Assembly (NCBI RefSeq): GCF_005311025.1 | Contig: NZ_CP031747.1 | Coordinates: 2,044,954 to 2,108,953 of the forward strand | Source: Alcaligenes faecalis | GTDB lineage: Bacteria > Pseudomonadota > Gammaproteobacteria > Burkholderiales > Burkholderiaceae_B | Direction: 5' to 3' | DNA length: 64,000 nucleotides | Shown here: positions 26,959 to 50,813 of the stretch, piece by piece | Layout of the letters: each line of letters opens with the position of its first letter | How positions within the stretch are numbered: the stretch's first letter is position 1 | Notes under the pieces: model-generated | Told to the model about the DNA's origin: nothing | The model's input: the letters and a program-made list of their open reading frames with translations, nothing else | The model's database searches: none | Made by a program: the position numbers and the translations under genes

Positions 26959-27657
26959 TTACGAACGCCGATAGTATTTCCGGTGCTCCACCATGGTGCC
27001 GATGATTTCAATAGCATGCTGGTCGCTGCGAATGGAAGGATAGTCTTCGTTCAGCGGCACCAGCTCAAAGATTTCTTGCCCACCTTCATCTATGCACAAG
27101 AGCCGGTATTTCTTGAAGGTGGCTTCTTCTTCGCTGTTTTTGGCGACCACATAATCACCGGGGCGGGGCGTGAGCTCGCAATCCACAATAATCCGGTCGC
27201 CTTCCTTGAAGTCCGGCAACATGGAATCGCCCTTGATCTGCAAGGCAAAGGAACGCTCGGACAGACACAGGTCCGTCAGCAGATATTCCACTTCTTCAAA
27301 CGTGAAGTTCTGACCGGGATCCCGAAACACACCTGCCTGTACATAGTTCAGCAGGGGGATACGCCGCTCGCCCATCATGGCGTCTTGCACGTTGGAGTCA
27401 AAACCGTGCTTGGCCCCAAAACCATAGCCTTGCTGATCCAGGCTATGCGCTTCCAGACCCACTTCTTTTTCTATGGCTCGCGCCACTCGTTCGCCAATGC
27501 TGCGCCCACCGTTGTAGGTGGATGACAGGTACTGGGCCAGTTGCGCCCGTGTGCGCCCAATAGAGCGCGCAAAGTCAGCCGCGTTGCCGTGAGCGCGGTC
27601 TTCAATCAGGCGTTGCAGGTTTCTGCGGCGAATCGAGTAAATATCCATACCCGACAT
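26959..27657 (-). CDS. CI/LexA-type phage repressor (S24 peptidase)
   Basis: 232 residues. The N-terminal helix-turn-helix is about residues 8-65. The C-terminal S24 autopeptidase has a likely Ala108-Gly109 cleavage bond (VQAGVF), Ser145 (GDSMLP) and Lys182 (ATFKKY). RecA-stimulated self-cleavage would induce the cluster after DNA damage. It is divergent from the Cro-like gene with the operators between. No ribosome-binding site is seen before its ATG; an internal ATG at 27648 is possible. Confidence 0.92.
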   Translation of the reverse strand: MSGMDIYSIRRRNLQRLIEDRAHGNAADFARSIGRTRAQLAQYLSSTYNGGRSIGERVARAIEKEVGLEAHSLDQQGYGFGAKHGFDSNVQDAMMGERRIPLLNYVQAGVFRDPGQNFTFEEVEYLLTDLCLSERSFALQIKGDSMLPDFKEGDRIIVDCELTPRPGDYVVAKNSEEEATFKKYRLLCIDEGGQEIFELVPLNEDYPSIRSDQHAIEIIGTMVEHRKYYRRS

Positions 27658-27672
27658 TAAAACAAGAAAAAA

Positions 27673-27688
27673 CTAAACATAGGTTTAG
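27673..27688. promoter_or_regulatory. repressor/Cro operator palindrome
   Basis: Perfect inverted repeat CTAAAC-ATAG-GTTTAG in the repressor-cro gap. Isolated half-sites recur at 27706-27711 (GTTTAG) and at 27738-27743 (CTAAAC, inside cro). The layout fits a lambda-like switch. Confidence 0.75.
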
Positions 27689-27730
27689 ATATTTCTTTTC
27701 TTTACGTTTAGAACTATCTATACTCAATGC

Positions 27731-27922
27731 ATGAACGCTAAACACATCATCGAAGAAATGGGCGGTCGCCGAGCCGTATTGCGTATCACAGGCTTGAGCA
27801 AAGGCCGCATATCTCAATGGGAGAAGGCTGGTGTCATACCGCGCGTCTGGCAACTGGTCTTCCATCACATGAACCCGGTGGTGCCCGCCCCAGCACCCAA
27901 AGAAAGCTCTAGAAATATCTAA
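27731..27922 (+). CDS. Cro-like regulator
   Basis: 63 residues. A Cro/YdaS-type helix-turn-helix is visible (HIIEEMGGRRAVLRITGLSKGRISQWEKAG) across residues 5-34; it is quoted here only as the span from His5 to Gly34. A TATACT element at 27719-27724 lies 7 bases before the ATG and no ribosome-binding site is present, so the mRNA may be leaderless. Confidence 0.78.
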   Translation: MNAKHIIEEMGGRRAVLRITGLSKGRISQWEKAGVIPRVWQLVFHHMNPVVPAPAPKESSRNI

Positions 27923-28113
27923 GCATTTACGACGGGTTTGGCTTGCAAGCCATGCCTGACAGTTCGATTGCGTCATGGGGTGACGCAGTTCTTGTGCCCT
28001 TGGGGCATTGCCTATCAATCGGATGTTCGTGGCCTGTTTGGGCCAGGGGTCCTGCTGCGCGTCATATTTTTGCAAATACATCAGAGGCGTGCGGTTTTTC
28101 AGGCGGGGGTGCC

Positions 28114-28188
28114 ATGAAAACACGTATTCACAACCATCGACACGAGTTTGCTTGTCGATGGCTCACACAGTCAGGAGCGTGCCTATGA
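28114..28188 (+). CDS. possible 24-residue peptide before the O-like gene
   Basis: A short frame with a GGGGGT box before its ATG, ending in an ATGA overlap with the next gene. It contains a 9-bp hairpin (stem arms 28134-28142 and 28153-28161) that could instead be the functional element, for example a pause or antitermination site. No family recognised. Confidence 0.3.
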   Translation: MKTRIHNHRHEFACRWLTQSGACL

Positions 28189-28970
28189 GCAATATGCCGT
28201 GGTTTCGCGCCTATACCGAGATGGTGGACGACGAGAAGTTGCGTCTGCTGGCTTTCGAGGACAGATGGCATTACGTGGCCTTGCTCTGCCTTAAAGGGCA
28301 GGGCGTGCTAGACAGCGAAGACACGCTGATGCTGCGCAAGGTGGCCGTCAAGCTGGGCCTGGACCTGCGCACCTTGGACGATGTGGTGCGCCGCTTAAGC
28401 GAAGTGGGCCTGATCGACCAGGAAACTTTGCAGCCTCTGGCGTGGGACAAACGCCAGATGAAATCCGACAGCAGCGCGGAGCGGGTGGCGCGTTTTCGGG
28501 CCAGAAAAAAACAGGAGCAAGACGGTAACGAGGGTAGTAACGCGTCCGTAACGTTACCGAAACGGCCGGGTAACGCGCTAGATAAAGAGACAGATAAAGA
28601 AGGAGAGACAGATACAGAAAAAACAAAAGCAGGTCGCAAGGCTCCGGCGCTGGAGTTCTCTGCCTGGCCTGCTGAACCCCGTGCCGAAGTGATCGCAGAT
28701 TATCTGCGCCATCGCCGCGAGATCAAAGCGCCCTTGACGCAAACCGCCCTGAACCGCCTGGGTTCCGAAGCCCACCGTGCCTTGGAGATGGGCTACAGCG
28801 TGGACGACTTTCTGGCCGAGTGCATGTTGCGTGGCTGGCGCGGGGGCAAGGCCAGCTGGCTGGAAGGACGCAACGAGCCCCGTGCAGGTCAGGCGTCGGG
28901 CTTTGATCCCCTGGCTTATGTGAACCGTCATCGGCAACGCGAGGAGATAGACGATGTCATCGATATCTGA
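28185..28970 (+). CDS. phage replication protein O-like
   Basis: 261 residues starting at MSNMPWFRAYTEM, with ribosome-binding site AGGAG. The N-terminal winged-helix region (about 1-95) resembles phage O/DnaD-like initiators. A hydrophilic linker (about 105-150) is encoded by repeated GTAACG units and an A-rich tract. The C-terminal part ends with a predicted helical region. The O protein binds the origin and recruits P. An overlap of 17 bp with the P-like gene supports coupling. The longer in-frame reading upstream of 28185 lacks conserved content. Confidence 0.8.
   Translation: MSNMPWFRAYTEMVDDEKLRLLAFEDRWHYVALLCLKGQGVLDSEDTLMLRKVAVKLGLDLRTLDDVVRRLSEVGLIDQETLQPLAWDKRQMKSDSSAERVARFRARKKQEQDGNEGSNASVTLPKRPGNALDKETDKEGETDTEKTKAGRKAPALEFSAWPAEPRAEVIADYLRHRREIKAPLTQTALNRLGSEAHRALEMGYSVDDFLAECMLRGWRGGKASWLEGRNEPRAGQASGFDPLAYVNRHRQREEIDDVIDI
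28525..28635 (+). other. candidate replication origin: GTAACG iterons plus A-rich tract
   Basis: GTAACG occurs at 28525, 28537, 28548 and 28570, and in reverse at 28552, so spacing is close to one or two helical turns. It is followed at ~28582-28635 by a strand-asymmetric purine/A-rich stretch. Lambda ori has the same plan (iterons then an A-rich region inside gene O). The location in the O-like linker matches. Confidence 0.65.
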
Positions 28971-29661
28971 TTTTTCCAACCCCTGGCTGCTGCGTCATAC
29001 CAAGCTGGAAGGCATCAGCCTGATGGACCATTTGTACAACCGGCTCAATGGCATTTATCCGAACAAGTTCCGCTCCAACTTTCGGGACAAGCAAGCCATT
29101 GAAGACTGGAAACAGGCCTGGGCCGAAGCTTTTGACGAGGAAGGTGTCTCGCCCAATGACGTGGCACTAGGCATCAAGAATTGCCGTCGCATGTTTGATT
29201 GGCCCCCCAGCTTGCCGGAGTTCTTGCGCGCGTGCCGCCCTCAACTGGAACCAGAAACCGCCTTTTTCCAGGCTGTGCGTGGCATGCAAGCACGAGTGCG
29301 AGGAGAAATGGGCGAGTGGTCACACCCGGCTATCTATCACGCAGCAATCAGCATTGGACAGTTTGACATGCTGAATCAGGCCTACACGCAGCTGGAACAA
29401 CGCTGGCACAAAGTGCTGGGAGATCACCTGGCCAAAGGACAGTGGCCAGAAATCCCGCCGCCTCGATTGGCCCTGACCTCCCCGCAAGACTGGGAGCAAG
29501 GGCGCCGGGAAGGGCAACGACGCGTGCGCGATCTGGCTCAGGTGATTTCGGGCGACACCAACAAGGACCCGCGAGTCTGGGCGAATCGGATCTTGGCCCG
29601 CCCGGAAGCGTGTTCCTTGGCCGTGCTGAAGATGGCCAAAGCAGCCTTGGGCAAGGAGTGA
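28954..29661 (+). CDS. phage replication protein P-like (helicase loader)
   Basis: 235 residues. Resembles lambda P-type proteins: LYNRLNGIYPNKFRSNF near the N-terminus, KQAWAEAFDEEGV, and MFDWPPSLPEFLRACRP. P proteins deliver the host DnaB helicase to the O-origin complex. It overlaps the O-like gene, the normal order in lambdoid phages. Confidence 0.82.
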   Translation: MSSISDFSNPWLLRHTKLEGISLMDHLYNRLNGIYPNKFRSNFRDKQAIEDWKQAWAEAFDEEGVSPNDVALGIKNCRRMFDWPPSLPEFLRACRPQLEPETAFFQAVRGMQARVRGEMGEWSHPAIYHAAISIGQFDMLNQAYTQLEQRWHKVLGDHLAKGQWPEIPPPRLALTSPQDWEQGRREGQRRVRDLAQVISGDTNKDPRVWANRILARPEACSLAVLKMAKAALGKE

Positions 29662-29668
29662 ACCAGCC

Positions 29669-29992
29669 ATGGATCTGACAACACGACTTCATCAAGAGGT
29701 GCATCAGGCGATCACCGGAGCAACTGCCCATCGCTACAGAGCACTGCTGGCTTTGCAGCGGAGCGGCCAGATCAGGCATTTGGTACAGCAGCCATCCTGG
29801 AGTCTGGTGCCACGGCTTTTCAGCCACCTGATACCTGCCGGCAGGATTTGCTATATCGCGGATTTTGCCTACACGGACAACAGCAGCGGCGATCGCATTG
29901 TGCAGCTAAGCGGCGATCCAGAAAGCCTGTTCCAAAGCATCAAACGAATTTTGCTGACCCGGATGCACGGCATCACCGTTCATCGGGCTTGA
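29669..29992 (+). CDS. DUF1064-like phage protein, nuclease residues degenerate
   Basis: 107 residues. The family outline is visible: RYRALLALQRSGQIRHLVQQ, then YIADFAYTD, then a C-terminal helix ending HGITVHR. In active DUF1064 proteins the segment after the second strand reads like VVEDVKG; here it is IVQLSGD, so the acidic/Lys pair is lost. It probably derives from a phage nuclease that no longer cuts. AAGGAG at the previous stop serves as ribosome-binding site. Confidence 0.55.
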   Translation: MDLTTRLHQEVHQAITGATAHRYRALLALQRSGQIRHLVQQPSWSLVPRLFSHLIPAGRICYIADFAYTDNSSGDRIVQLSGDPESLFQSIKRILLTRMHGITVHRA

Positions 29993-30005
29993 AGGAGGAA
30001 CCCAC

Positions 30006-30386
30006 ATGACAATCAAAGCAGAAAAAAAGCAGGGTCTGAGCGGCGACGATTTGCTCTGGAATTGGGCCCGTTGGTGCTGGTCCGGGCAGACCGTGGGCAA
30101 TATGGAACGCTACGTTCCCTGGCAAGAGGACTTTCGGCCCATACATCAAGACCACGCTTTGGCGGTTGACGCCCTCTACCAGCGCCTGCCGCATTACCAA
30201 GCCATGGTCATCCAGGCCGAGTACCCGCGCAAGAACGCTCAGTACGGTCATTTGACCGCCAGCGAACGCCAGGCCACAGCCCGTTTGTGGATCAAAAAGG
30301 TGACTGGCGCGGTCCTTCGGGATGAAGACTACCGCCGCCATTTGATGGATTTCAGAATCACAGTCGAGAAGGAGATTTTGCGGTGA
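30006..30386 (+). CDS. late antiterminator Q-like protein
   Basis: 126 residues. The N-terminal WNWARWCWSGQ and middle ALYQRLPHYQAMVIQAEYPR recall the phage antitermination Q/ArpU-like group with a sigma-region-4-like fold. The assignment is by eye and by position: last but one early gene, just before a strong terminator and the late operon. A strong ribosome-binding site (GGAGGA) precedes it. Confidence 0.5.
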   Translation: MTIKAEKKQGLSGDDLLWNWARWCWSGQTVGNMERYVPWQEDFRPIHQDHALAVDALYQRLPHYQAMVIQAEYPRKNAQYGHLTASERQATARLWIKKVTGAVLRDEDYRRHLMDFRITVEKEILR

Positions 30387-30631
30387 AGTATGCAGCCGAA
30401 GTCATAGACCTGTTAGCGGCCTATCCGGGACGAGAGTTCCGCATGATCCAGATTGTGCGGCACGTCAGCAAAGGCATGGAGCTGTCCACGGCCCAACGCA
30501 ACGCCATGCGCGAAGGGGTCAAGCGTGTGCTGGCGCAATTGCAGGATTCAGGTCAGGTGGACAAGATCAAAGAGGGTGAAACCTCTGCCTTTTACGCCTG
30601 GCGTTGCAGTCTGCAACATGGTCCGCTATGA
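30383..30631 (+). CDS. small winged-helix-like phage protein
   Basis: 82 residues starting at a GTG that overlaps the previous stop by 4 bases. The helical pattern and IVRHVSKGMELSTAQRNAMREG with a C-terminal basic/aromatic strand suggest a small winged helix. No family recognised. It may help the Q-like protein control late genes. Confidence 0.55.
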   Translation: MKYAAEVIDLLAAYPGREFRMIQIVRHVSKGMELSTAQRNAMREGVKRVLAQLQDSGQVDKIKEGETSAFYAWRCSLQHGPL

Positions 30632-30682
30632 ATCTGCAAGGCTAATTGCAATAATGGGCGTGCAAAGTTGCGTCCAATGCAA
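30603..30682 (+). promoter_or_regulatory. TGCAA repeat array before the late operon
   Basis: Five direct TGCAA units start at 30612, 30635, 30647, 30661 and 30678. The first is part of a palindrome GTTGCAG-T-CTGCAAC (30603-30617). The array ends 9 bp before a strong terminator. It may be the binding site for a late activator or antiterminator, similar in logic to pyocin P-boxes. Confidence 0.5.
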
Positions 30683-30690
30683 ACGAAACA

Positions 30691-30723
30691 ACCCCGAGCA
30701 AGAAATTGCTGCGGGGTTTTTTT
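30691..30723 (+). terminator. terminator at the head of the late operon
   Basis: Outer stem ACCCCG / CGGGGT, inner AGCAA / TTGCT, then T7. It lies between the early genes and the tail genes, the position of tR' in lambdoid phages. It marks the point where a head module would normally follow. Confidence 0.85.
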
Positions 30724-30805: not shown

Positions 30806-31225
30806 ATGAACTTTGAACAGATCAGTAAAGCCATTATTGATCACATGGTGGCATTGACCGGGATTGCTCAGGAGCGCATCGAGTATCCCAATGCCCATGC
30901 AGTCTTTACCCCGCCGGATACGGGCGTCTGGTGCCGTTTGCTGATCAAGAATACCGATTCGGAAATCTCGGGCATGGGTGCGAGACCCTACACCCGCAAA
31001 TTGGGCGAGATTCTGATCGAGTGTTTTGATCGTTTGGGTCAGGGCCGTCAGGAGCTGGATCGCCTGAGCGATGCCGTAGATGAACACTTTTCCTTCTGGT
31101 CTGAAGGAGAGTTGGAATGCCTGGGCCTGAGCCAGGTCGACGTGGCAGCGGATGACCCGCAAAAACGGCCACAACGCGAAGAGTTTTACCAGATCAACCT
31201 GACCGTCCCGTTTCGGGCCGGTTGA
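30806..31225 (+). CDS. tail terminator protein (lambda U-like)
   Basis: 139 residues. Size and position (immediately before the major tail protein) fit a lambda gpU/tail-completion protein. Visible: mixed alpha/beta pattern with WCRLLIKNTDSEISG and a C-terminal FYQINLTVPFRAG strand. gpU caps the tail tube and, in a phage, joins it to the head. Its retention without a head is compatible with tailocins, which need length-capped tubes. Start has GGAG upstream. Confidence 0.65.
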   Translation: MNFEQISKAIIDHMVALTGIAQERIEYPNAHAVFTPPDTGVWCRLLIKNTDSEISGMGARPYTRKLGEILIECFDRLGQGRQELDRLSDAVDEHFSFWSEGELECLGLSQVDVAADDPQKRPQREEFYQINLTVPFRAG

Positions 31226-31294: not shown

Positions 31295-32218
31295 ATGAGT
31301 TCTGGCGCTAAAGTTACTAGCTACCTGGTTAAAGAAACCGTTCCCGGTGTAACCCCCGGTTCGGGCTGGCAGACGCTGCGCGTTACCGGCAACACACTGA
31401 CTCCTACCCTGAACAAAGAGGAGTCCGAAGAAATCACCGATTCGCGTATTGGTCAGGGTTCGATCGTGACCAGTATTGATATTGGTGGCGACATCACGGG
31501 CGAACTGTCCTACGGCACCTTTGACGAGCTGCTGGCCGCTGCCTTCTACGGCGAGTGGAAAGAGAGCAAGCTGAGCGTGGGCGAGACCCGCAGCACCTTC
31601 AGCCTGGCCAAAGCCTATCGTGACGTGGATGTCTACGCGCTGTTCAAGGGTGCACATGTCAGCACCTTTGCCCTGGAAGTGCCTGAAGAAGGCAAAGCCA
31701 CCGTAACCTTCACCATGTCTTGCCTGGATTACGAAGACAAGGAAACTCCCTTTGCCACCGATCCGGCCGAGCCCAGCCAAACACCTTTCATGTCCTCGAT
31801 CAGCGTGGGCGATGTGAAAGCCAATGGTGTGTCTTTGGCTGGTCAGGCTTGCGTATCGGGCCTGACCCTGAACATCGACAATCAGTTGCAGACCCAACGC
31901 TGCTTTGGTGCCGAGCGCTTGGGCCCCGGCGCCCTGATTGAGACCGCAGCAGCCATCACCGGCACAGTGACCCTGGCTTGGTCCCAGAAGGCTTGGGAGC
32001 TGTGGAAGAACCAGTTCAAACGCACCCCGATCGCCATTTCCTTCCCGATCACCGACTCCCTTGGCAACAAGTACGAGATCGATCTGCCCGCCATTGAGGT
32101 CGATGGTGACCTGCCTAACGGTGCCAAGGGCGACATTCTGAAAGTGGAGCTGAACTTCACTGTGGCCAAGCAAACCCCTGTGCTGACGCGTAGTCCTGTT
32201 GCTGCGCCTGCACCTTAA
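31295..32218 (+). CDS. major tail tube protein (lambda V-like)
   Basis: 307 residues starting MSSGAKVTSYLVKE with AGGAGAG upstream. The tube-domain pattern is seen in EEITDSRIGQGSIVTSIDIGGDITGEL and later TSCLDYEDKE-like MSCLDYED and LTLNIDNQLQTQRCFG; quoted segments are conserved in phage tail tube proteins of the TTP_6/DUF3383-like kind. It polymerises into the flexible tube. It is encoded with strong codon bias relative to the neighbouring tail genes, as expected for the most abundant component. Confidence 0.8.
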   Translation: MSSGAKVTSYLVKETVPGVTPGSGWQTLRVTGNTLTPTLNKEESEEITDSRIGQGSIVTSIDIGGDITGELSYGTFDELLAAAFYGEWKESKLSVGETRSTFSLAKAYRDVDVYALFKGAHVSTFALEVPEEGKATVTFTMSCLDYEDKETPFATDPAEPSQTPFMSSISVGDVKANGVSLAGQACVSGLTLNIDNQLQTQRCFGAERLGPGALIETAAAITGTVTLAWSQKAWELWKNQFKRTPIAISFPITDSLGNKYEIDLPAIEVDGDLPNGAKGDILKVELNFTVAKQTPVLTRSPVAAPAP

Positions 32219-32229
32219 GGAGTGATGGC

Positions 32230-32703
32230 ATGGCTTTGAAGATTAATCGCCTGGAATCGGTGCTGAGTCAGGAGCGGTGGGAGGATTATGACGAGGACGT
32301 GTCTTTCAAGATTGCGGCGCTTGATACCGAGGCTTATCAAATAGCCTTGGAGCGAGCTCGCCGCTTGATTGCACGGGAAGATGCAGGGCATTCACTGGCG
32401 GCTATTCGTGTTTCAAGTAACGATGTCCGCGAGCACGATGTTCAGTGCCAGTTGTTGAGCACGTATATCGTCAAGGACTGGAAGGGTGAGGTCCTTGATG
32501 AAGCGGGCAATGTCATTCCTTATTCGCCCGAGAATGCGACCAAGTTGTTGTCAGAGAACACAGACCTTTTTGTCTGGGTGATTGCGACAGCGGCCCATGT
32601 TGCGGCCAATGCGAAGAAGGAGGCCCAGGAAACCGTGGAAAAGTCCTCGCCCGGTTCCAGTGGGAAAAAGAGTGGGCCGGGCAAAATGAAAAGCGCAAGC
32701 TGA
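32230..32703 (+). CDS. tail assembly chaperone, short form (lambda G-like)
   Basis: 157 residues between the tube protein and the tape measure, the fixed place of the G/GT chaperones. N-terminus MALKINRLESVLSQ; C-terminus is a Ser/Lys/Gly-rich tail ending soon after an A5 run. The -1 frame stays open through this tail and continues to 32948. Ribosome-binding site AAGGAG precedes it. Confidence 0.75.
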   Translation: MALKINRLESVLSQERWEDYDEDVSFKIAALDTEAYQIALERARRLIAREDAGHSLAAIRVSSNDVREHDVQCQLLSTYIVKDWKGEVLDEAGNVIPYSPENATKLLSENTDLFVWVIATAAHVAANAKKEAQETVEKSSPGSSGKKSGPGKMKSAS

Positions 32704-32948
32704 TTCATTCGACTCTCGGTGCTCAGATCCCGGATGAACCTCCCAGTGATCCCATTACGGATCATGTCATCCGTGTTTATTGTGCTGCAGACCGTTGTCG
32801 AAGTGTGATTGTCGGAATGGGCGGGGCGGTGCCATTGCCCCTTTCTACCGAGAACATAAGCGCCGTGGTCCAGGCATACGGAACCCCACTGCCCCGGCAA
32901 GAGTTGGATATGGCTGTGTTTGAGCTTGATCGCTTGGAACGCAGTTGA
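32230..32948 (+). CDS. tail assembly chaperone, frameshifted GT-like form
   Basis: Reading the -1 frame from about 32661 gives a continuation starting WEKEWAGQNEKRKLIH and ending FELDRLERS at 32948. It adds ~95 codons with no start codon or ribosome-binding site of its own near the junction. The zero-frame codons GGG AAA AAG at 32662-32670 give a plausible slip (A5 then G). A -1 shift here is the hallmark of lambda-type GT chaperones. The exact slip codon is inferred. Confidence 0.65.
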
Positions 32949-33066
32949 TTGCCTGGTGGTGGGAGCAGGAGGTGGGCCAGCTGGGGTTGCACGTTTACCT
33001 GGCTGGCCCAATTGTTTTGATAGGGTTCAGGTCCTGAGATTTGAATCAGCGTCTATGTGCGGTTTT

Positions 33067-36102: not shown

Positions 36103-36440
36103 TGAATACATTTACTTGGGCGGCGGAACAGCAAAATATGGTGCAAGAGGTTGAGTTCCAGGTTTTGTCAGCCAAGCTGGGTGATGGTTATGTACAACGG
36201 GTGGGCAAAGGGATGAACTCCAAAGACGCCAAGTGGTCTTTGGTGTTTTTGGGGCGACAGCAGCGTATTGATGAGATCACAGAGTTTTTGGATGAACATG
36301 CTGGATGGTGCTCTTTTCTTTGGACCCCACCTGGGCAGAGCACGGCGATTGTTACCACTTGTGGTGCCTATTCGCAGGAACATCAAGGCGCCGATGTTTG
36401 GCGACTGTCCGCAACTTTTGAGAAGGGGTTTCAACCATGA
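36099..36440 (+). CDS. minor tail protein (lambda M-like)
   Basis: 113 residues. Phage minor tail family signature: VLSAKLGDGYVQRV near the N-terminus, WSLVFLGR, and the end WRLSATFEKGFQP. M initiates the tail tip complex. Tandem ATG at 36099/36102; overlap with the tape measure stop favours coupling. Confidence 0.85.
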   Translation: MMNTFTWAAEQQNMVQEVEFQVLSAKLGDGYVQRVGKGMNSKDAKWSLVFLGRQQRIDEITEFLDEHAGWCSFLWTPPGQSTAIVTTCGAYSQEHQGADVWRLSATFEKGFQP

Positions 36441-37180
36441 CGATTACTGCAGATCTACAAAAGTTGGAGCCTGGTGCCATCGTGGAGTTGTTTGAGCTTG
36501 ATGCTGAAGAAATTGGTGCTGGCACGTTTCGTTTTCATGGCTATTCGCAAGATACACCGATTTGGTGGCAAGGAAAAAGGTATGAGCCATGGGCTATTCA
36601 AGCGACAGGATTTAAACGCGCAGGTGAAGGGCGCCAAGCGACTCCTAAAGTGCAGGTGGGAAACATTGGTGTGGATGCTCAGGGCAAGCCTGTGCCAGGG
36701 GTGATTTCCGCCTTGTGCCGGATGTATGGGGATTTAGTTGGTACACGATTTATTCGGCATCGTACCTTAGTGAAATATCTTGATGAGGCTAATTTCCCGG
36801 AGGGTAATCCTGGGGCAGATCCTACGCAGTCTTTTCCTCTTGAGGTGTGGCTGATTGAGCAGAGGTCTGCCAGTAATGCCGAAGCGGTAGAGTTTGAGTT
36901 ATCCAGCCCGTTGGATTTCCAGGGGCAGCGATTGCCAGGACGCCAAATTATGACGTATTGCTCTTGGACGCGTATCGGTGGCTATCGTGGGCCTTATTGT
37001 GGTTACACAGGTTCAGCCATGTTTGATAAGAATGATCAGCCAGTGCAGGACCCTGCTTTAGATCGTTGTCCTGGTTTTGTCCGTAGTTGCCAGTTGCGGT
37101 GGGCTAGTGTTCAGAACTGTCAACCTGAGGAAGCAGAGATTTCATTTGGTGGTGAACCGGCGGCTGATCGCCTCCGTTAA
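36437..37180 (+). CDS. minor tail protein (lambda L-like, Fe-S)
   Basis: 247 residues. The C-terminal third has the family's Cys pattern: TYCSW, RGPYCGYTG, DRCPGFVRSC. Lambda L carries a 4Fe-4S cluster at the tail tip, and these cysteines are the expected ligands. It overlaps the M-like gene by 4 bases. Confidence 0.88.
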   Translation: MTITADLQKLEPGAIVELFELDAEEIGAGTFRFHGYSQDTPIWWQGKRYEPWAIQATGFKRAGEGRQATPKVQVGNIGVDAQGKPVPGVISALCRMYGDLVGTRFIRHRTLVKYLDEANFPEGNPGADPTQSFPLEVWLIEQRSASNAEAVEFELSSPLDFQGQRLPGRQIMTYCSWTRIGGYRGPYCGYTGSAMFDKNDQPVQDPALDRCPGFVRSCQLRWASVQNCQPEEAEISFGGEPAADRLR

Positions 37181-37200
37181 CGATTGCGATGTATTGGATG

Positions 37201-37222
37201 ACCGCTATAGGCGGTTTTTTTT
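37201..37222 (+). terminator. terminator-like hairpin before the K-like gene
   Basis: Stem ACCGC / GCGGT, loop TATAG, then T7; 11 bp before the next start codon. Confidence 0.65.
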
Positions 37223-37233
37223 ATGGGTGTCAT

Positions 37234-44035: not shown

Positions 44036-44404
44036 ATGGATATAAGAAATTTCTATACACACGATAAAAATGGTCGAATCACCGGTGTTTTTACGGAGAA
44101 TGAAGAGTTTTTCCAAGTCAATCAAGGCTCTCTTAAGCTGATCCGTGGTCATGCTGATCCAAGTCGTCAATTCGTGACTGAGCAGGGCTTGCAGGATCGT
44201 CCGCCTCAAGAGACCTATTTGGATGGCAATACATTGCATCATTTGCCACAGCCCTGCGAGATCGTGATCAATACAACCAGGACTTACGCTTGGGAAAGTG
44301 TCAGTGCCGAGCTGGAGTTTGATCAACCGGGAATGTACACCATTAAGGTCATTGCCTGGCCTTATCTTGATAAGGAGTTTGTCCTTGAAGCTCAAGCATT
44401 GTGA
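44036..44404 (+). CDS. small phage tail-associated protein
   Basis: 122 residues, no recognised family. It starts four bases past the J-like stop and has a beta-rich look (ITGVFTENEEFFQVNQGSL, MYTIKVIAWPY). Such proteins after J often belong to the fibre set or its chaperones. Confidence 0.65.
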   Translation: MDIRNFYTHDKNGRITGVFTENEEFFQVNQGSLKLIRGHADPSRQFVTEQGLQDRPPQETYLDGNTLHHLPQPCEIVINTTRTYAWESVSAELEFDQPGMYTIKVIAWPYLDKEFVLEAQAL

Positions 44405-44435
44405 ACCCTATGCGCCGTTGCGCAGGAAATCTTAT

Positions 44436-44573
44436 ATGGAGAAGTCTGATCAGCTGGATGCTATTTTCAAGATGGCACAAGCGTTAAGGATGCAAGGTAT
44501 AGCGTTACCAGAGGAAACGGTGAAATGGATTGAGCACTGCGAATCGGTAAAGACAGAATTCAAGAAAAACTGA
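44436..44573 (+). CDS. 45-residue phage protein
   Basis: Starts MEKSDQLDAIFKMAQ with AGGAAA upstream. Short helical protein, family not recognised; similar short proteins accompany phage fibre genes. Confidence 0.55.
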   Translation: MEKSDQLDAIFKMAQALRMQGIALPEETVKWIEHCESVKTEFKKN

Positions 44574-44584: not shown

Positions 44585-44782
44585 GTGAATCTACAGCACT
44601 CAATTTCTCAGCTCTTTGAGAGCAATATGGGAAACCGTATTACGCCTGAGCTGGCGGCTGGGATGATTCGTGGATTAGTAGCTATTTTGGCTGCCGGAGT
44701 CCAAGTGGCCGCCACGAGTCAGGAAAGCCCAGAACAAAGCATTGAACACGCAAAGGGAGAGCCATGGCCTGGTATGACATAG
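44585..44782 (+). CDS. 65-residue phage protein before fibre 1
   Basis: GTG start with AAGGAGTGACAA upstream. The centre is hydrophobic (GLVAILAAGVQVAA). Its end overlaps the first fibre gene by 19 bases. Similar short, less complete segments precede fibres 2 and 3. Confidence 0.6.
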   Translation: MNLQHSISQLFESNMGNRITPELAAGMIRGLVAILAAGVQVAATSQESPEQSIEHAKGEPWPGMT

Positions 44783-45789
44783 GAACAGTTGAAGTCAAGG
44801 TAAATCGTGCGACTGTTACAGGAACCGGGACACAGTGGCTGTCAGGTGCTCGACAAGGTGAGGCATTCGTAGCCCCGGATGGTCGGCTATACGAGGTAGC
44901 GAATATTGCTTCTGATACTTCGTTGACCCTGGCCAAACCTTATTTAGGTGCCACAGGCACCGCTCAGAAATATGCACTTGCGCCGATGCAGGGGTATGTC
45001 AAAGAGCTGGCTGACCGAGCAGCAGGACTGTTGCCCGTCTTGGCTGATCTGGGCACGGCAGCCAAAGCAACTCTGACAGACTCCAACCAGGACGCGACTG
45101 CAGGGCGAGTCGCACGCATTGGTGACTGGGGGTTTGGTGTTGGCAGCTCAATCGCGGCTGATCCTAATATTCTTAACAACACAGTCAACGGTTTTTATCG
45201 ATCTGGTTCGGGCAATACGGAAGCCCCTGACAACAATACCGGTGCTGGCTACATTAAATTTGGCTGGAGTGGAGCCTACTATAGCTTGCTATATGCCTCT
45301 CCAATAAGCGACAAGCTCTGGATTCGAAACGTCCAGAACCGGGTTGCCAAGCCATGGCAGGAACTCTTGACGCATCGAAATACGATGGTCGACAGCAATG
45401 GCTTTATTAAAAAGGCATCCCCTGTCATTCAGCTTGGTAGTACGGGCATTGAGAAGACCATGCATCCTGAAATTGCCGCAGCCAAGTTTGAGCGCCTTGG
45501 AGCTGGCCACTATCTCTTGCGCCAGGTACCGCTACTGAGTCGTGACGGCTGGTATATCGAAACCCCGAAAGATCGAAATGGCAATGTGTATTTCACCTTG
45601 GACTACGAAGAGTGCGAGCAGGACCAAACACTGACGATTCGTACCTATGAGCCTGATTACAGTACTGGACCAGCGATCAATGGCAAAGCCCTTGATATCC
45701 TTCCCGACCGTTTTGTAAGTTTGCGATTTGCCGAGGAGCCATCTCCGGCTTTACAGGATTGTGATCCTGTCGAGTATCCAGCCGCTTGA
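44764..45789 (+). CDS. tail fibre protein 1 with pyocin-knob-like domain
   Basis: 341 residues. N-terminal module (1-~92, MAWYDIGTVEVKV to GYVKELADRAAGLL) is shared with fibres 2 and 3 and likely attaches to the tail. Residues ~120-205 (GDWGFG to KPWQELLT) resemble the pyocin knob fold and match fibre 2. The C-terminal ~130 residues are unlike either sister. Fibres of this type decide which cells are bound. Confidence 0.8.
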   Translation: MAWYDIGTVEVKVNRATVTGTGTQWLSGARQGEAFVAPDGRLYEVANIASDTSLTLAKPYLGATGTAQKYALAPMQGYVKELADRAAGLLPVLADLGTAAKATLTDSNQDATAGRVARIGDWGFGVGSSIAADPNILNNTVNGFYRSGSGNTEAPDNNTGAGYIKFGWSGAYYSLLYASPISDKLWIRNVQNRVAKPWQELLTHRNTMVDSNGFIKKASPVIQLGSTGIEKTMHPEIAAAKFERLGAGHYLLRQVPLLSRDGWYIETPKDRNGNVYFTLDYEECEQDQTLTIRTYEPDYSTGPAINGKALDILPDRFVSLRFAEEPSPALQDCDPVEYPAA

Positions 45790-45804
45790 ATAGCGGCTTT
45801 TTTT
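45780..45804 (+). terminator. terminator-like hairpin after fibre 1
   Basis: 7-bp stem AGCCGCT / AGCGGCT, loop TGAAT, then T6. It overlaps the fibre 1 stop region. Confidence 0.72.
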
Positions 45805-45818
45805 ATGGAGTACGAATA

Positions 45819-45917
45819 ATGAACACTCAGCATTCTGGTGCGCCGTTTTTAGTATGTGCCCAAGTAGCGGCTGAGGGGCATCACTGTCAGCAAGGAGTAT
45901 GGAATGGCTTGGTATGA
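45819..45917 (+). CDS. possible 32-residue peptide before fibre 2
   Basis: ATG with GGAG eight bases upstream; ends 14 bases inside the fibre 2 gene, as the 65-residue gene does at fibre 1. Contains FLVCAQVAA, similar to GVQVAA of that gene. It may be a decayed copy rather than a working gene. Confidence 0.35.
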   Translation: MNTQHSGAPFLVCAQVAAEGHHCQQGVWNGLV

Positions 45918-47400
45918 CTTGGGGACTGTAAAAGTCACCGTAAATAGCAGCACTGTGACGGGCACCGGCACGAAGTGGCTGGCAGGTGCCCGGCAGGGCG
46001 AGGCCTTTGTTGCCCCTGACGGTCGACTGTATGAGGTGTTGAATATTGCGTCGGATACCTCCTTGACGCTGACTAAGCCTTATCGCGGTGCTACGGCTAC
46101 AGGTCAGCCTTATGCTTTGGCCCCCATGCAAGGCTATGTCAAAGAGTTGGCAGATCGTGCAGCAGAATTGCTGCCCGCACTGTCGGATATGGGGAGCGCC
46201 GCCAAGGGTACTCTGGCCACATCAACGATCGATCCTGTCCCAGGGCGCGTGATGCGCAATGCAGACTGGGGTTTTGGAGGTAATTCGGGAGCGGTTGCAG
46301 ACCAAGACATTCTGAAAAACCCCATTAATGGGATTTACCGATCGGGCTCAAGCGATGTGGGTAAACCTGATGGCACCAGCTCCGGATCAAGCTACTTCAA
46401 GTTTGGGTGGGGCGGTACGTATTACGGTCTATTGTATGCATCGCCGGTTCAAGACAAGTTCTACATACGCACAGTCAATAACGCTAAGCCCAATGCCTGG
46501 AAAGAGCTTATGACAGTGGGGCAGTATGGCGTGGGCCGCTCGGGCGCAGACGCCAATTTAGACATATTTCCAGCAGCAGATCTGAATGCGCTGGGTGTGG
46601 GGGCGGGATCCTACTACTATGGTCCCCTAGTTGGTGATGCGTCGAAATTGCCCTTTGACCCTAATGTGACCGGATACAACGCTGGGGTTTTATTTCATAG
46701 GCAGGCGGGCACAGCCGGGGGGCAAGTGGCGGTCAGCTCCAGTAACAGATTAGGTTGGCGCGGTCGGCGTGCTGGTGCTTATCACACTTGGCGCGAGGCC
46801 ATGTATGTAGGTGAATACGGATTTGGTGGTGCTCAAGCTAACCCAACCTCATGGGACGCCCAAAAGACTGGGTGGTATTACCGATCTGGAGCTAAACCGG
46901 CTTGGGGGGGCGGGGGGTTTTTCCTAGACCTGGCCTATAACACAACCTCCTTTAACTCTGGTCTGCGTATTTCGACGGACCCCTATACCGATAACTTTTA
47001 TATGAATGGTGCGGTATCTGGTCAAAAGACGTTCCGCAATGCCTGCAAACTTGTTCACGATAAAAATATTGTTGGGGATGTTGCTGGTGGGTCCGTCGTG
47101 CAGAGTGGGAGCAATGCAAGTGGTCAATGGCTGAGATTTGCAGATGGCACCCAAATTTGCTACGGCAATCAAAATTTCCCTGGCAACGGATGGAATGCCA
47201 AACCTTGGCACTATCCCTTGGCATTCATATCCAGACCTGTCGTTGCTGTCAGTGGTGGAGGGGACAATGGCGGATTTGCGGCAGCGCCAATTTTGGAGAT
47301 CCAAAATACAGGAGTGATTTTCAGAAAAGTGACCGGTTCAGTTGAGAACGATAACTGGGCCGATTTTTTTGTCATCGCTATCGGAAGGTGGAAAGCATGA
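45904..47400 (+). CDS. tail fibre protein 2 with pyocin-knob-like domains
   Basis: 498 residues, the longest of the three fibres. The N-terminal module is shared with both sisters. The first knob-like block (~118-202) matches fibre 1; a second (~205-310) and the C-terminal part from ACKLVHDKNIVGD to the end match fibre 3. It is thus a composite of both sisters. It has its own AAGGAG ribosome-binding site. Confidence 0.82.
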   Translation: MAWYDLGTVKVTVNSSTVTGTGTKWLAGARQGEAFVAPDGRLYEVLNIASDTSLTLTKPYRGATATGQPYALAPMQGYVKELADRAAELLPALSDMGSAAKGTLATSTIDPVPGRVMRNADWGFGGNSGAVADQDILKNPINGIYRSGSSDVGKPDGTSSGSSYFKFGWGGTYYGLLYASPVQDKFYIRTVNNAKPNAWKELMTVGQYGVGRSGADANLDIFPAADLNALGVGAGSYYYGPLVGDASKLPFDPNVTGYNAGVLFHRQAGTAGGQVAVSSSNRLGWRGRRAGAYHTWREAMYVGEYGFGGAQANPTSWDAQKTGWYYRSGAKPAWGGGGFFLDLAYNTTSFNSGLRISTDPYTDNFYMNGAVSGQKTFRNACKLVHDKNIVGDVAGGSVVQSGSNASGQWLRFADGTQICYGNQNFPGNGWNAKPWHYPLAFISRPVVAVSGGGDNGGFAAAPILEIQNTGVIFRKVTGSVENDNWADFFVIAIGRWKA

Positions 47401-47510
47401 CGTTTGAGGCTACGACAGTAGTGCCTAGTTCTAATAATTCCCGCACATGCGGGTTTTTTTTGCTGATTGTTTGTAGCCAGGTGGCAAGCATACGATACAT
47501 AGGAGGATAG
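47397..47510 (+). CDS. possible 37-residue peptide or leader before fibre 3
   Basis: The frame begins at an ATGA overlap with the fibre 2 stop and runs to three bases before fibre 3. It contains a terminator-like hairpin (CCCGC / GCGGG, 47440-47453, then T8). The translated part FLLIVCSQVAS resembles the segments before fibres 1 and 2. The hairpin may be the real function. Confidence 0.25.
   Translation: MTFEATTVVPSSNNSRTCGFFLLIVCSQVASIRYIGG
47440..47461 (+). terminator. terminator-like hairpin between fibres 2 and 3
   Basis: Stem CCCGC / GCGGG, loop ACAT, then T8; 52 bp before the fibre 3 start. Confidence 0.68.
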
Positions 47511-47512
47511 CA

Positions 47513-48748
47513 ATGGCTTGGTATACCGCCGGGACCGTCAAGGTCGCCGCAAACAATGCCACGGTCACCGGAACCGGAACAAAGTGGCTCTCTGGGGCGC
47601 GTCAGGGTGAGGCATTTGTGGCACCTGATGGGCAGCTTTATGAAGTAAAGAATATTGCGTCAGACACATCGTTAACGCTGACGCAGGTTTATCGTGGTGC
47701 GTCTGCCAGTGGGCAGGCCTATGCTTTGGCTCCCATGCAGGGTTACGTCAAGGAGTTGGCAGATCGCGTCGCGTCGCTACTTCTGCTTTCCCAAACTGAA
47801 TGGGAGTGGGATTCGGTTTTAAAAAAGACAGATTTGCAAGCTGCTCCTAACGATCCGACAGCCTGGAAAATTCTTACTAATGGTCGAGCATTCGGCTTGG
47901 GTAGTTTTGGGGCGGCAAACTCATATGATCATTGGCCCACGGCATCGCTTGACGATGTAGATGTCCCGGCAGGCATGTATTACGTAAGCACGGCGATTAC
48001 CGACAGACCGACCACAGCGCCTGGTGTTGTATGGCATCGTCAGACCGGTACGGTGGGAGCCCAAATTTATGTCTCCTCCGATGGTGGTGTGGTTCACCGA
48101 GGGCGCCGGTCCGGAACATATCGAGCCTGGCTGAGCACCTTGAATGTCGGTGAATTTGGATTAGGTGGTGCTACAACCACCCCATCCAATGGCAGGGATA
48201 GTTCCAATCCATTTGGCTGGTACTACCAAACACGGGCGGTAACGTGGGGTGGTGGTTCTTTCTTTCTTGATATGCCCTACGGCAGCAATATGAATGCGGG
48301 GCTGCGCCTTTCTACCGATCCTTACTCCGATAACTTTTATTTAAATGGTGGGGTCTCGGGCAAGAGGGAATACCGCCCAGCCTGCAAGTTGGTTCACGAC
48401 AAGAATATTGTGGGTGATGTGGCAGGTGGATCGGTTGTGCAGTCGGGGTCAAATTCAAATGGCAATTGGATACGGCTTGCCAATGGCACTCAAATTTGTC
48501 GTGGGCAAGTCACATTCAGTGGTAATGGCTGGAAGCCTTCCAGTCCAGTGATCTCTTATCCCATGGCGTTTATAGCGCCTCCCACCACGGTGATCCAGCC
48601 CCTGTCTGACGGCTCTGGATATTATGCCGTGCCTCAAATGGGGATGGGTTCAGGGGCGGGTAGTTTCTTTATTCGCGACACTGCCGGCATTGTGGATACT
48701 GGCACAAGTGCCGCAGTTGACTATGTAGCAATTGGAGTGTGGAAATAA
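47513..48748 (+). CDS. tail fibre protein 3 with pyocin-knob-like domain
   Basis: 411 residues. Shared N-terminal module (MAWYTAGTVKVAANNATV). Lacks the first knob block of fibres 1 and 2, and goes directly to the second (~135-235). The ACKLVHDKNIVGDVAGG segment is nearly identical to fibre 2, after which the last ~100 residues diverge. Ribosome-binding site AGGAGG is strong. The stop overlaps the next start (TAATG). Confidence 0.82.
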   Translation: MAWYTAGTVKVAANNATVTGTGTKWLSGARQGEAFVAPDGQLYEVKNIASDTSLTLTQVYRGASASGQAYALAPMQGYVKELADRVASLLLLSQTEWEWDSVLKKTDLQAAPNDPTAWKILTNGRAFGLGSFGAANSYDHWPTASLDDVDVPAGMYYVSTAITDRPTTAPGVVWHRQTGTVGAQIYVSSDGGVVHRGRRSGTYRAWLSTLNVGEFGLGGATTTPSNGRDSSNPFGWYYQTRAVTWGGGSFFLDMPYGSNMNAGLRLSTDPYSDNFYLNGGVSGKREYRPACKLVHDKNIVGDVAGGSVVQSGSNSNGNWIRLANGTQICRGQVTFSGNGWKPSSPVISYPMAFIAPPTTVIQPLSDGSGYYAVPQMGMGSGAGSFFIRDTAGIVDTGTSAAVDYVAIGVWK

Positions 48749-49164
48749 TGAATTTCATCATCAAACTATGCCCCCAGGTCCCTGTGGATATGGTCCAAAA
48801 GATCAGTCTGGAGCGTTCGGGCACCATTCTAAAAATTAACCAGGAAGAGCTTGATTTGTCCTTTATGTCCCCTGGCGATGTTCTGCCAGCCGGCGCAATC
48901 GAGCATCCCTTATTGAAGCAGGCCTCAGTTACCCGTCATGCTGACAGCGTCGAGATTGATCAACTGCTTTTTCATATCGCGGCGGATCAAACAGATCCGG
49001 CAGCATGCTTTCCTGAGCCGGTCGTGATCAGTGAGGACGGCTTGGTTGCTTTACCTGAGCAATGTCCATCGCCAGCGCCCGCCCCAGAGTTGCCTCCTGA
49101 AGCTGACTTTGAAACAAACCCTGAATTTGAAGTAAAGGAGGAAACCGATGCAGATCAATATTGA
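48748..49164 (+). CDS. fibre-associated protein, possible chaperone
   Basis: 138 residues, coupled to fibre 3 by a 1-base overlap. N-terminal half is alpha/beta, the C-terminal ~35 residues are acidic and Pro-rich (PSPAPAPELPPEADF). The family is not recognised; position suggests a fibre chaperone or cap. Confidence 0.6.
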   Translation: MNFIIKLCPQVPVDMVQKISLERSGTILKINQEELDLSFMSPGDVLPAGAIEHPLLKQASVTRHADSVEIDQLLFHIAADQTDPAACFPEPVVISEDGLVALPEQCPSPAPAPELPPEADFETNPEFEVKEETDADQY

Positions 49165-49573
49165 TAGTAGTAAGGTCGTGACGGCAGCAGCTCAACTGCA
49201 GACGTATAAGGAAAGCAAGATTACCGCTTTGTCGGCAGCTTGCCGGGCGGCTATCAAGGACGGCTTTGAGTCCGAGGTTTTGGGTGAGCTTCACCGATAC
49301 CCTAGTAATGAAACTGATCAATTGAATCTGGCCAGTAGTTTGGCTGATTCATTGTTGTCTGGTCTTGCCGCTAACTGGTCTACACCATTTTGGTGCGCGA
49401 ACCACGCCGGCGATTGGGCTATGCGTATGCATACGGCTGAGCAGATTCAGCAATTGGGTCGAGAGGCCAAGGCACGCATTGTGAGTCTGATGCAGCGTAA
49501 TGCGCTGTTGGCTGAGCAGGTTCAGCAAGCAAATAGCAAAGCCGAAGTGGATCAGTTTGAGTGGTCTGCGTAG
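49148..49573 (+). CDS. DUF4376 phage protein
   Basis: 141 residues resembling the DUF4376 domain common next to phage tail fibres: KESKITALSAACRAAIKDGFES, then PFWCANHAGDWAMRMH. Role unknown. It overlaps the previous gene by 17 bases. Confidence 0.75.
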   Translation: MQINIDSSKVVTAAAQLQTYKESKITALSAACRAAIKDGFESEVLGELHRYPSNETDQLNLASSLADSLLSGLAANWSTPFWCANHAGDWAMRMHTAEQIQQLGREAKARIVSLMQRNALLAEQVQQANSKAEVDQFEWSA

Positions 49574-49606
49574 ACTTACCATTACTTCTTGAAAATTGCT
49601 CCCCGG

Positions 49607-49627
49607 CCCGCTTGAGCGGGTTTTTTT
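49607..49627 (+). terminator. terminator-like hairpin before the lysis genes
   Basis: CCCGCT / AGCGGG with a very short loop, then T7; 64 bp before the holin-like start. Confidence 0.72.
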
Positions 49628-49691
49628 ATGTCTGCTGCACCCATAAAAGGGATGCAGCAGACAGGGCAAATTTAAATAAGGAGAAGGGCCT

Positions 49692-49916
49692 GTGCTGAAT
49701 AACGACGCCGCTCACCTACCCATAAGCACCGGCTCGGCCCTGCTTATTTATGGTTGGACGATGCAGGATTTTGTGCTGACTTTATGGGCGGCTTATGTGG
49801 TGATTTTGATTGTGACCAAGCTGCCGGACTTTACTCGTGCGGCCGCGCGGATTGTGGGCGGGATCCAGCGCGCCTGGCGCCAGCTCAAGGAGTGGAAGCA
49901 TGGATCTGAAGACTAA
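49692..49916 (+). CDS. holin-like small membrane protein
   Basis: 74 residues from a GTG start with AAGGAGAAGG upstream. One clear membrane segment (FVLTLWAAYVVILIVTKL) and a basic C-terminal tail. Size, topology and position before the endolysin fit a holin. With a SAR endolysin it may act as a pinholin. Confidence 0.7.
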   Translation: MLNNDAAHLPISTGSALLIYGWTMQDFVLTLWAAYVVILIVTKLPDFTRAAARIVGGIQRAWRQLKEWKHGSED

Positions 49917-50358
49917 GCTGGGTGCAGGGGTAGTCTCGGCGGCGATTGCTTTGGTTGCCGCCTGGGAGGGGCGCTCTTTGATCGCCTATGTGGACCCCGT
50001 CGGCATTCCGACTATCTGCGACGGCTACACACAAGGAGTCAAGCTGGGTGATATGGCCAGTCCGCAGCGTTGCGACGCCTTGACGGAGCAGGAGGTTCGT
50101 CGCGCTTTGAGTGTGGTGGATCGCTCCGTTAGCTATCCCTTGCCGGATGAGGTACGTGTGGCGCTGAGCAGCTTTGTTTACAACGTGGGGGCCGGGGCCT
50201 ATGCCAATTCGACCTTGCTGCGCAAGCTACGGGCTCGGGATATAGCCGGAGCATGTCAGGAGCTGGATCGTTGGGTCTATGCTGGTGGCCGCAAACTGCG
50301 GGGGCTGGAGCGGCGGCGTCAGGCCGAGAGGCAGTTATGTCTATCAAGTCTGCATTAG
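49900..50358 (+). CDS. SAR endolysin (GH24 lysozyme)
   Basis: 152 residues. The N-terminus (residues 6-21) is an Ala/Gly/Val-rich signal-anchor-release segment, not a cleaved signal. The catalytic triad of the phage 21 type is present as Glu23, Asp32, Thr38 (E-x8-D-x5-T). It cuts peptidoglycan once released from the membrane. Overlaps the holin-like gene by 17 bases. Confidence 0.9.
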   Translation: MDLKTKLGAGVVSAAIALVAAWEGRSLIAYVDPVGIPTICDGYTQGVKLGDMASPQRCDALTEQEVRRALSVVDRSVSYPLPDEVRVALSSFVYNVGAGAYANSTLLRKLRARDIAGACQELDRWVYAGGRKLRGLERRRQAERQLCLSSLH

Positions 50359-50813
50359 TAGGGGCTGCTGTTCTGGCAGCCCTTTTTTTATGGGGGGCGC
50401 TTTATGGTCAGGAGCAGTATCGCAAAGGCTATGAGCTGGCCCAGGCGCAGACCAGGGCGGCACAGTTGCAGGCCGAGGTTCGTGCGCGCTTGATGGAGCA
50501 ACGATTACAAAAGGAGGTCGAGGATGTTCGAGTCACTTATCAAATGCAGCTGGGTGCGGCCCAGCGTGTTGCTGTGGCTGCTCGCGCCGATCTTGACGGC
50601 TTGCGCAGCAAGCTCGCCGCCGCCAATGATCGTGTCGCCGCTCAGGCTGCCCGAGCCGGACATGCGCTGGATGCAAACGCCCGAATTGCCAGCCAGCTGC
50701 GCGACGTGGTCGGCCTGTGCGCAGAGCGATATACAGAGATGGCAGGAGTTGCTGATGGATACCGGAGCGCTTTAAGCGGTTTGCAGGGGTATGTGTTGGC
50801 CTTGAGGAAATAG
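50337..50813 (+). CDS. Rz-like inner-membrane spanin subunit
   Basis: 158 residues starting within the endolysin gene at MSIKSALVG. One N-terminal membrane segment (VGAAVLAALFLWGALYG) and a long periplasmic helical region (about 45-125). Together with the nested Rz1 it would fuse inner and outer membranes at lysis. Last gene of the cluster. Confidence 0.82.
   Translation: MSIKSALVGAAVLAALFLWGALYGQEQYRKGYELAQAQTRAAQLQAEVRARLMEQRLQKEVEDVRVTYQMQLGAAQRVAVAARADLDGLRSKLAAANDRVAAQAARAGHALDANARIASQLRDVVGLCAERYTEMAGVADGYRSALSGLQGYVLALRK
50362..50389 (+). terminator. terminator-like hairpin inside the Rz gene
   Basis: 7-bp stem GGGCTGC / GCAGCCC, loop of 7, then T7, located within the codons for the Rz membrane segment. 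It may reduce read-through into Rz/Rz1, or be coincidental. Confidence 0.5.
50524..50775 (+). CDS. Rz1-like outer-membrane spanin lipoprotein, nested in Rz
   Basis: 83 residues in the +1 frame, fully inside the Rz gene, as in lambda. Lipobox APILTAC with lipid Cys27, then a Pro-rich mature part. The arrangement strongly supports a functional two-component spanin. Confidence 0.85.
   Translation: MFESLIKCSWVRPSVLLWLLAPILTACAASSPPPMIVSPLRLPEPDMRWMQTPELPASCATWSACAQSDIQRWQELLMDTGAL

Follow-up and report, generated by a model that had tools for sequence, protein, structure and literature searches.

A headless λ-like locus of Alcaligenes faecalis with a conserved replicon and an exchangeable tail

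The DNA considered here is a 64,000 nucleotide stretch (the window) of the Alcaligenes faecalis genome (contig NZ_CP031747.1 of assembly GCF_005311025.1; genome G000 below), and its subject is a 24 kb locus at window positions 26959-50813 in which genes of λ type lie in the λ order without a head module. Profile searches, which set the families in Table 1, bore out the gene order of a preliminary description of this DNA, namely repressor, cro-like, O- and P-like genes, the tail genes from tail terminator to J, fibers, and lysis genes. By its gene content this is very probably a tailocin-type locus, a gene set for headless phage tails, and it departs from the usual description of tailocins in one respect, since a replicon (O, P, and iterons) is present and conserved.

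Gene content and late control

The early genes include a λ-type replicon, an O-like gene with internal iterons followed by a gene for a P-like helicase loader. O most likely starts at 28185, and its GTAACG-type repeats, together with the purine-rich tract of 12-base repeats downstream of them, match the origin-like array noted earlier; the λ origin has the same layout, iterons and then such a tract. The repressor translation, read by eye, has Ala-Gly and Ser/Lys motifs. The set of flexible-tail genes is complete, and the chaperone slippery site GGGAAAAAG lies at the same place in all four λ-type loci compared (G000, G007, G008, and the head-bearing prophage of G004); such a retained -1 frameshift site may be taken as a sign of a tail that is meant to assemble. 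The locus also has its own lysis cassette. The earlier lysis assignment held for the lysozyme and Rz by profile and for Rz1 by its lipobox, while the holin (no match for its 74-aa frame in family profile searches) and the SAR (signal-anchor) type of the lysozyme were placed by sequence and position.

The gene called Q-like in the preliminary description, g126, fits that label by its position, lying before the late genes in this locus and before the head genes in head-bearing prophages; otherwise its likeness to Q is a weak structural one. Its predicted model (mean pLDDT 76) has the Q protein of phage 21 (Q21) as top Foldseek row, a weak match with an E value of 1.4. VIA-align gave Z scores of 5.8-6.2 for Q21 over 102-109 residues, about 4 for AlpA (another antiterminator), and 6.4-7.3 for sigma region 4 domains, with the warning that such Z scores can reflect a merely common helical arrangement. 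Pfam searches, with g126 by itself and with 14 of its relatives, yielded no informative match. Position and model weakly fit a Q-type antiterminator that would act at the terminator at 30723, which has a fold z of -5.35 and is bulged and unlisted by a simple terminator scan. Upstream of it, at 30632-30690, four TGCAA motifs are candidate binding sites for the late regulator.

Table 1. Features of the locus and its borders (window positions; aa, amino acids; TM, transmembrane segment)
Feature	Position	Strand	Evidence and remarks
Left border g88, small lipoprotein-like gene	26656-26922	+	Adjoins empty, scarred, and occupied sites alike
CI-like S24/LexA-type repressor	26959-27657	-	PF00717 1.2e-19; phrog_4; 97-100% identity in 3 other genomes
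Cro-like regulator	27731-27922	+	phrog_409 1.2e-5; phrog_8008 3.8e-6; 94-100% identity
O-like replication initiator	28185-28970	+	phrog_678 1.9e-15 (longer frame from 28008 scanned)
Iteron array in O, candidate origin	28524-28578	+	GTAACG-type copies; purine-rich tract to ~28630
P-like helicase loader	28954-29661	+	phrog_109 6.3e-35; Pfam lambda P PF06992 1.3e-7
Resolvase-like fragment	29669-29992	+	phrog_190/DUF1064, below cut-off
g126, candidate late regulator/Q-type antiterminator	30006-30386	+	Position before late genes; weak structural similarity
g82, small, overlaps g126	30383-30631	+	phrog_20616, function unknown; 98-99% identity
Late control segment: 4 TGCAA motifs, strong intrinsic terminator	30632-30723	+	Near-invariant in 14 aligned sequences, the two R-type ones among them
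Tail terminator	30806-31225	+	phrog_179 4.5e-29
Major tail (tube) protein	31295-32218	+	phrog_290 1.8e-89
Tail assembly chaperones, -1 frameshift	32230-32949	+	phrog_313; frame 0 stop at 32703
Tape measure, 998 aa	33106-36102	+	phrog_339 1e-118
Minor tail proteins M, L, K, I	36102-38618	+	phrog_14, 18, 30, 32
Central tail fiber J, 1805 aa	38615-44032	+	phrog_2589, phrog_31, E 0
Two small genes after J, function unknown	44036-44573	+	phrog_18216; phrog_2504
Three side tail fibers, common N-terminal domain	44764-48748	+	phrog_2712 in 3/3
Fiber-associated proteins	48745-49573	+	phrog_2398; DUF4376/phrog_1348
Holin-like single-TM protein, 74 aa	49692-49916	+	Sequence and position; 89-96% identity
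Phage lysozyme	49900-50358	+	PF00959 4.2e-38; SAR type read from N-terminus alone
Rz spanin	50337-50813	+	phrog_312 6.7e-25
Rz1, other frame inside Rz	50524-50775	+	Lipobox
Right border, P-loop kinase-like gene	50859-51389	-	Pfam/NCBIfam matches below cut-offs; g88 neighbor at empty sites

Head genes, chromosomal site, and tail exchange

The locus was compared over 15 units, four Alcaligenes genomes and 11 IMG/VR contigs (several of them partial) collected with P as bait at a P identity of at least 94%. As the preliminary description had stated, the window locus yielded no terminase, portal, capsid, or integrase gene; profile scans of the window genes gave no head gene, and 12 proteins of head and packaging function, taken from three head-bearing relatives, had no match at a cut-off of 1e-3 in 20 stretches from the 15 units. 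The same queries recovered, by construction, the loci from which they came, and picked up TerL-like genes in four of eight further prophage stretches, leaving L028, L091, L084, and L085 without any match; the test is therefore sensitive to related heads only, and taken by itself it leaves room for a very divergent head gene. The terminase profile phrog_2 found one 332-aa chromosomal match in each of four whole genomes scanned and missed the terminase of a G007 prophage, which another profile picked up, so it carries little weight. The integrase profile PF00589 has seven matches in G000, none inside the locus, and none at the locus of G007 or G008. The head queries and PF00589 thus brought out no hidden head or integrase gene in the window locus, and on that basis it does not qualify as a gene transfer agent, which requires head and terminase genes, or as an intact prophage, which requires an integrase and a head module.

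DNA searches over 10 genomes of the genus (G000 included) and alignments of the fetched regions place the locus between g88 and the convergent kinase-like gene in G000, G002, G007, and G008, four of the 10; occupancy was typed at the sites of all but G004 and G005. The site is empty in G006, G001, and G009, where the two genes adjoin with a few hundred bases between them. In G003 it holds a deletion scar, in which the repressor is damaged and the initial 45 codons of O are fused to the end of Rz (L075:1240-2300); this is a route by which the locus is lost. None of the sites read in the 10 genomes, which exclude those of G004 and G005, has a head module between g88 and the kinase-like gene. The locus is thus a stable chromosomal one across species, kept by selection (below).

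A prophage in decay, its head and integrase recently lost, would find a precedent in the G003 remnant and in relatives whose head genes separate g82 from the tail genes. One such relative is the G004 prophage, which has g126/g82 and a related tail with terminase, portal, scaffold, and major head genes in between, and whose layout suggests where the ancestor lost its head module. The headless arrangement nevertheless recurs at the same site in four genomes, 11 contigs carry the same early block, and the genes are open in all five units checked and under purifying selection; the headless state is not a recent deletion, and ongoing decay is very improbable.

A satellite that donates tails and relies on the head of a helper phage is the least probable alternative of those weighed. 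A head-bearing prophage does lie just upstream of the locus in G007, related lysis genes lie upstream of it in the L105 record, and the G004 phage has a related tail. Against these stand the lack of an integrase at the locus in G000, G007, and G008, the failure to find a packaging gene in any unit, and the possession by the locus of its own lysis genes and repressor.

The ends of the locus form a fixed chassis. Besides the values in Table 1, the three other genomes have proteins identical to those of the window at 91-93% for O, 94% for P, 98% for g126, and 86-96% for the lysis genes, whereas the content from g82 to the holin gene differs among G000, G002, G007, and G008. The flexible tails of G000 and G008 are related and differ largely in the tape measure; G007 agrees with G000 in the initial tail genes and over ~445 residues at the start of the tape measure, and has a different tail tip beyond them with a 2318-aa J-like protein. 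The G002 tail is contractile, with sheath (phrog_205, 5e-101), tube-like, hub, and wedge proteins. The chassis thus carries three flexible tails and one contractile R-type tail, and the earlier label "F-type" stands for the insert of this strain but not for the locus.

In all 11 IMG/VR contigs g82 is directly followed by the tail terminator gene, and a CI search, which is independent of P, found nine contigs at 97% or more, all within the same 11. Their tails are G000-like (L098, L099), G008-like (L100, L101, L105, L106), G007-like (L102, L103), or contractile (L107); L097 and L104 stop too early for typing. Five of the six longer records have a locus-type lysozyme at their right end, and the sixth, that of L101, is a fragment. 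L098 and the window, and likewise L107 and G002, are identical over the parts compared and so may be the same strains resequenced. Over the 3.85 kb block before the tail, L105 and L106 (flexible) match G002 and L107 (contractile) at 99% DNA identity, and the P proteins of L106 and G002 do not differ; tail type has therefore been swapped between close relatives. Homology between the flexible and contractile versions stops directly after the strong terminator at 30723.

In the contractile G002 version (L071:1171-5664, L181) a tyrosine recombinase gene lies beside a fiber gene inside the locus, and a 15-base repeat occurs four times, with at most two mismatches and in both orientations, with several frames between the copies that end alike. 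Repeats and recombinase are likely a shufflon that switches the fiber tip. The region is identical to its IMG/VR copy over 6.8 kb with no inversion seen, the window has no copy of the repeat, and no paper on a tailocin shufflon was found in the open-access literature searched.

Selection, ancestry, and the replicon

Ratios of nonsynonymous to synonymous substitution rates (dN/dS; pairwise, Nei-Gojobori) are low for most of the scored genes, a set that does not include the tape measure. Among the early genes they are 0-0.04 for CI, 0-0.08 for cro, 0.057-0.093 for O, 0.038-0.055 for P, 0.02-0.04 for g126, and 0-0.06 for g82, and among the late genes 0.035-0.043 for the major tail protein, 0.12-0.18 for the tail terminator, 0.07-0.13 for the lysozyme, and 0.06-0.24 for the holin. 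The G000-G008 pair alone gave 0.13 for J, 0.06 for K, 0.10 for I, and 0.05-0.11 for the fibers, as well as 0.03 for L and 0.16 for M, whose dS of 2.6-2.8 makes their ratios unreliable. The flanking genes r383, r235, and r308 have ratios of 0.02-0.03, 0.035-0.07, and 0.05-0.15, and the constraint on CI, cro, O, P, g126, the tube gene, and the lysozyme gene is of like degree. The earlier statement that tail and lysis genes are intact agrees with these values, the scored tail, lysis, O, and P genes being open and constrained. The dS of O and P (0.31-0.81) is near that of the three flanking genes (0.27-0.87), as expected if the unit was inherited since the species split with some recombination. 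In the resolvase-like fragment at 29669-29992 constraint is relaxed, and it is possibly decaying.

The persistence of O and P might instead reflect mere refreshing by recombination from active phages. Tail genes have clearly been exchanged, the major tail protein being 83% identical to that of a head-bearing prophage. The locus P proteins, however, form a separate clade, 94-100% identical within it and at most 67% identical to the other relatives found, and refreshing has only a very small chance of being the explanation. A tree of 36 P proteins unites those of the locus in one clade with 100/100 support (11 rows, of which two are truncated duplicates). L108, L111, and the G007 prophage upstream of the locus group nearest to this clade with weak support of 82/72, and head or packaging genes were found in each (in L111 by tblastn); L108 is 79% identical to the locus in CI and 67% in P. 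Distant CI and P relatives from IMG/VR entered the P tree only. Relatives of CI outside Alcaligenes (L084-L089) are 35-55% identical, and among five loci (L083 of Alcaligenes and L084-L087) only L084 and L085 have O or P matches near CI.

The iterons appear to be constrained beyond their coding role. In the four genomes one of 15 scorable iteron codons varies synonymously, compared with 102 of the 198 in the rest of O (Fisher 7e-4; lowest-window permutation 0.006), and in 14 sequences 2 of 14 against 106 of 194 (0.004; permutation 0.035); the iteron interval was defined after the alignment was seen, and the permutation allows for that choice. O and P were found together in all 15 units, in 11 of which P had been the bait.

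Interpretation and comparison with known systems

Our preferred interpretation, to which we give a probability of roughly two in three, is that of a domesticated, SOS-controlled tailocin with a fixed chassis around an exchangeable tail, whose template is amplified in place before lysis. The tailocin part, which the preliminary description had proposed, is supported by the synteny (the same headless unit at the same site), the constraint, and the lack of any head gene found. The chassis would comprise CI, Cro, O with its origin, P, the late regulator, and the late control segment on one side of the tail and the holin, lysozyme, and Rz/Rz1 on the other. DNA damage would lead to self-cleavage of CI and turn on the cro-O-P operon; O would bind the iterons that its coding sequence contains, and P would load the host DnaB. 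Replication would fire in place, with no integrase to excise the locus, and multiply the 24 kb template, g126/g82 would let transcription read through the terminator at 30723 and reach the tail and lysis genes, and headless tails, presumably killing particles, would assemble and be freed by lysis. Replication in place before excision is known from phage P22. In its available part, one report questions the excision-replication-packaging order (PMC8575938).

That the replicon is retained for amplification in place is, as a separate point, more probable than not. It is the most economical explanation because the replicon is common and constrained across species and the chassis outlives the tails. 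The broader proposal, that some tailocins are replicon-boosted weapons in which a genus-wide chassis keeps O, P, and the origin solely to multiply tail and lysis genes, with F or R tails plugging in, stands slightly better than an even chance.

A true tailocin might also keep O and P for coupling early to late transcription or for shutting down host replication (λ P is toxic in excess) rather than for amplification, and this we consider unlikely, though it is the alternative with most in its favor. Support for it comes from rhizoviticin, a tailocin of A. vitis VAR03-1, for which the available text reports that tail and lysis genes are expressed less when the replication initiator, a DnaB-like gene, or any one of three other early genes is deleted (PMC10811719), so that several early genes beyond the replication genes are required. 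Against it, the iteron DNA in O varies less than its coding role requires, and O and P stay together throughout the units. The effect of losing the rhizoviticin replication genes is, by analogy, also what dosage would predict; its mechanism is described there as unknown, and the authors term the locus an early transitional stage (PMC10811719).

Several observations weigh against amplification in a domesticated tailocin. g126 resembles Q weakly (Foldseek E 1.4, VIA Z ~6), a promoter scan gave three sites against 3.1 expected with none at the late control segment, and the g126 and g82 matches of L097 are partial. The permutation over 14 sequences reaches just 0.035, and some lineages have changes in two of the iteron copies (GGTAAGG, AGTAGCG). 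The resolvase-like fragment and Rz are under looser constraint (dN/dS 0.30-0.56 and 0.28-0.53). dS is low in g82 and the tail terminator and major tail protein genes, and high in M, L, I, J, and K (very high in M and L), which points to recombination there and leaves strict vertical descent unsupported. In the R-type G002, one of 10 PF00589 matches, the tyrosine recombinase, lies inside the locus. Finally, rhizoviticin also needs early genes other than those of replication.

Tailocins are described as having no replication genes in the accessible text of a 2024 review (PMC12090994), and tailocins or pyocins likewise in that of two other papers (PMC13195805, PMC13075995). The earlier statement that the retained O and P are unlike described pyocins agrees with these descriptions. 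Rhizoviticin is a precedent for a tailocin with replication genes; among the partly available open-access literature it was the one exception found, and no Alcaligenes tailocin was evident by title or abstract start among the open-access matches listed. Rhizoviticin, as far as its text was available, resembles the present locus in being F-type and headless with a LexA-family repressor and replication, tail, and lysis genes, and is UV-induced. It differs in its initiator and DnaB-like helicase, in an integrase remnant beside a tRNA gene, and in being reported from one species (PMC10811719). The Alcaligenes locus has an O/P replicon, no integrase in the flexible-tail genomes, a distribution over several species, constraint, and tails that are exchangeable and include a contractile one. 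What sets it apart is a replicon shared and constrained across species, one that looks stably maintained rather than transitional.

Other known systems share parts of this arrangement. The F- and R-type pyocins of P. aeruginosa form neighboring clusters with common control and lysis. Their headless tails, flexible λ-like and contractile P2-like, resemble those of the locus in the descriptions available (PMC10811719, PMC12090994), and the locus is unlike them in having a replicon within its conserved chassis, tailocins in general being described without one (PMC12090994). The head-bearing λ-type prophages of Alcaligenes (G004, G007, L108) have g126/g82 in the same position and related early (L108) or tail genes (G004), but possess their own terminase, portal, and major head genes. 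The Bartonella gene transfer agent, in the partial accounts available, is likewise a domesticated phage relic, in which a phage-derived origin amplifies chromosomal DNA by run-off replication. Unlike the locus, it has heads and packages DNA, and its gene set is unrelated.

The replicon belongs to the most conserved part of the locus across several species while the tail is swapped. If our interpretation is right, replication genes can be a functional part of a tailocin and need not mark an early transitional stage, and the requirement of rhizoviticin for replication genes in tail expression gains an explanation. If the template is amplified, weapon yield would be set partly by a phage-style copy number, a layer of control for phage-tail weapons. 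The swaps of F and R tails on a near-identical chassis amount to a natural experiment on change of weapon target.

The surroundings of g88 show further rearrangement, and the region may be a hotspot. In G007 a prophage that has terminase, portal, and major head genes lies upstream of g88 (L074, L025:1-3700), and a related lysis cassette sits just before g88; lysis genes of the same kind also lie just before g88 in the IMG/VR record of L105 (L105:1971-2801). In the window, positions 25669-26650 to the left of g88 are rearranged, with an AAG/GAA repeat run at ~26270, and the 21-25 kb region with a U32 peptidase pair maps far from the site in the other genomes where the site is resolved.

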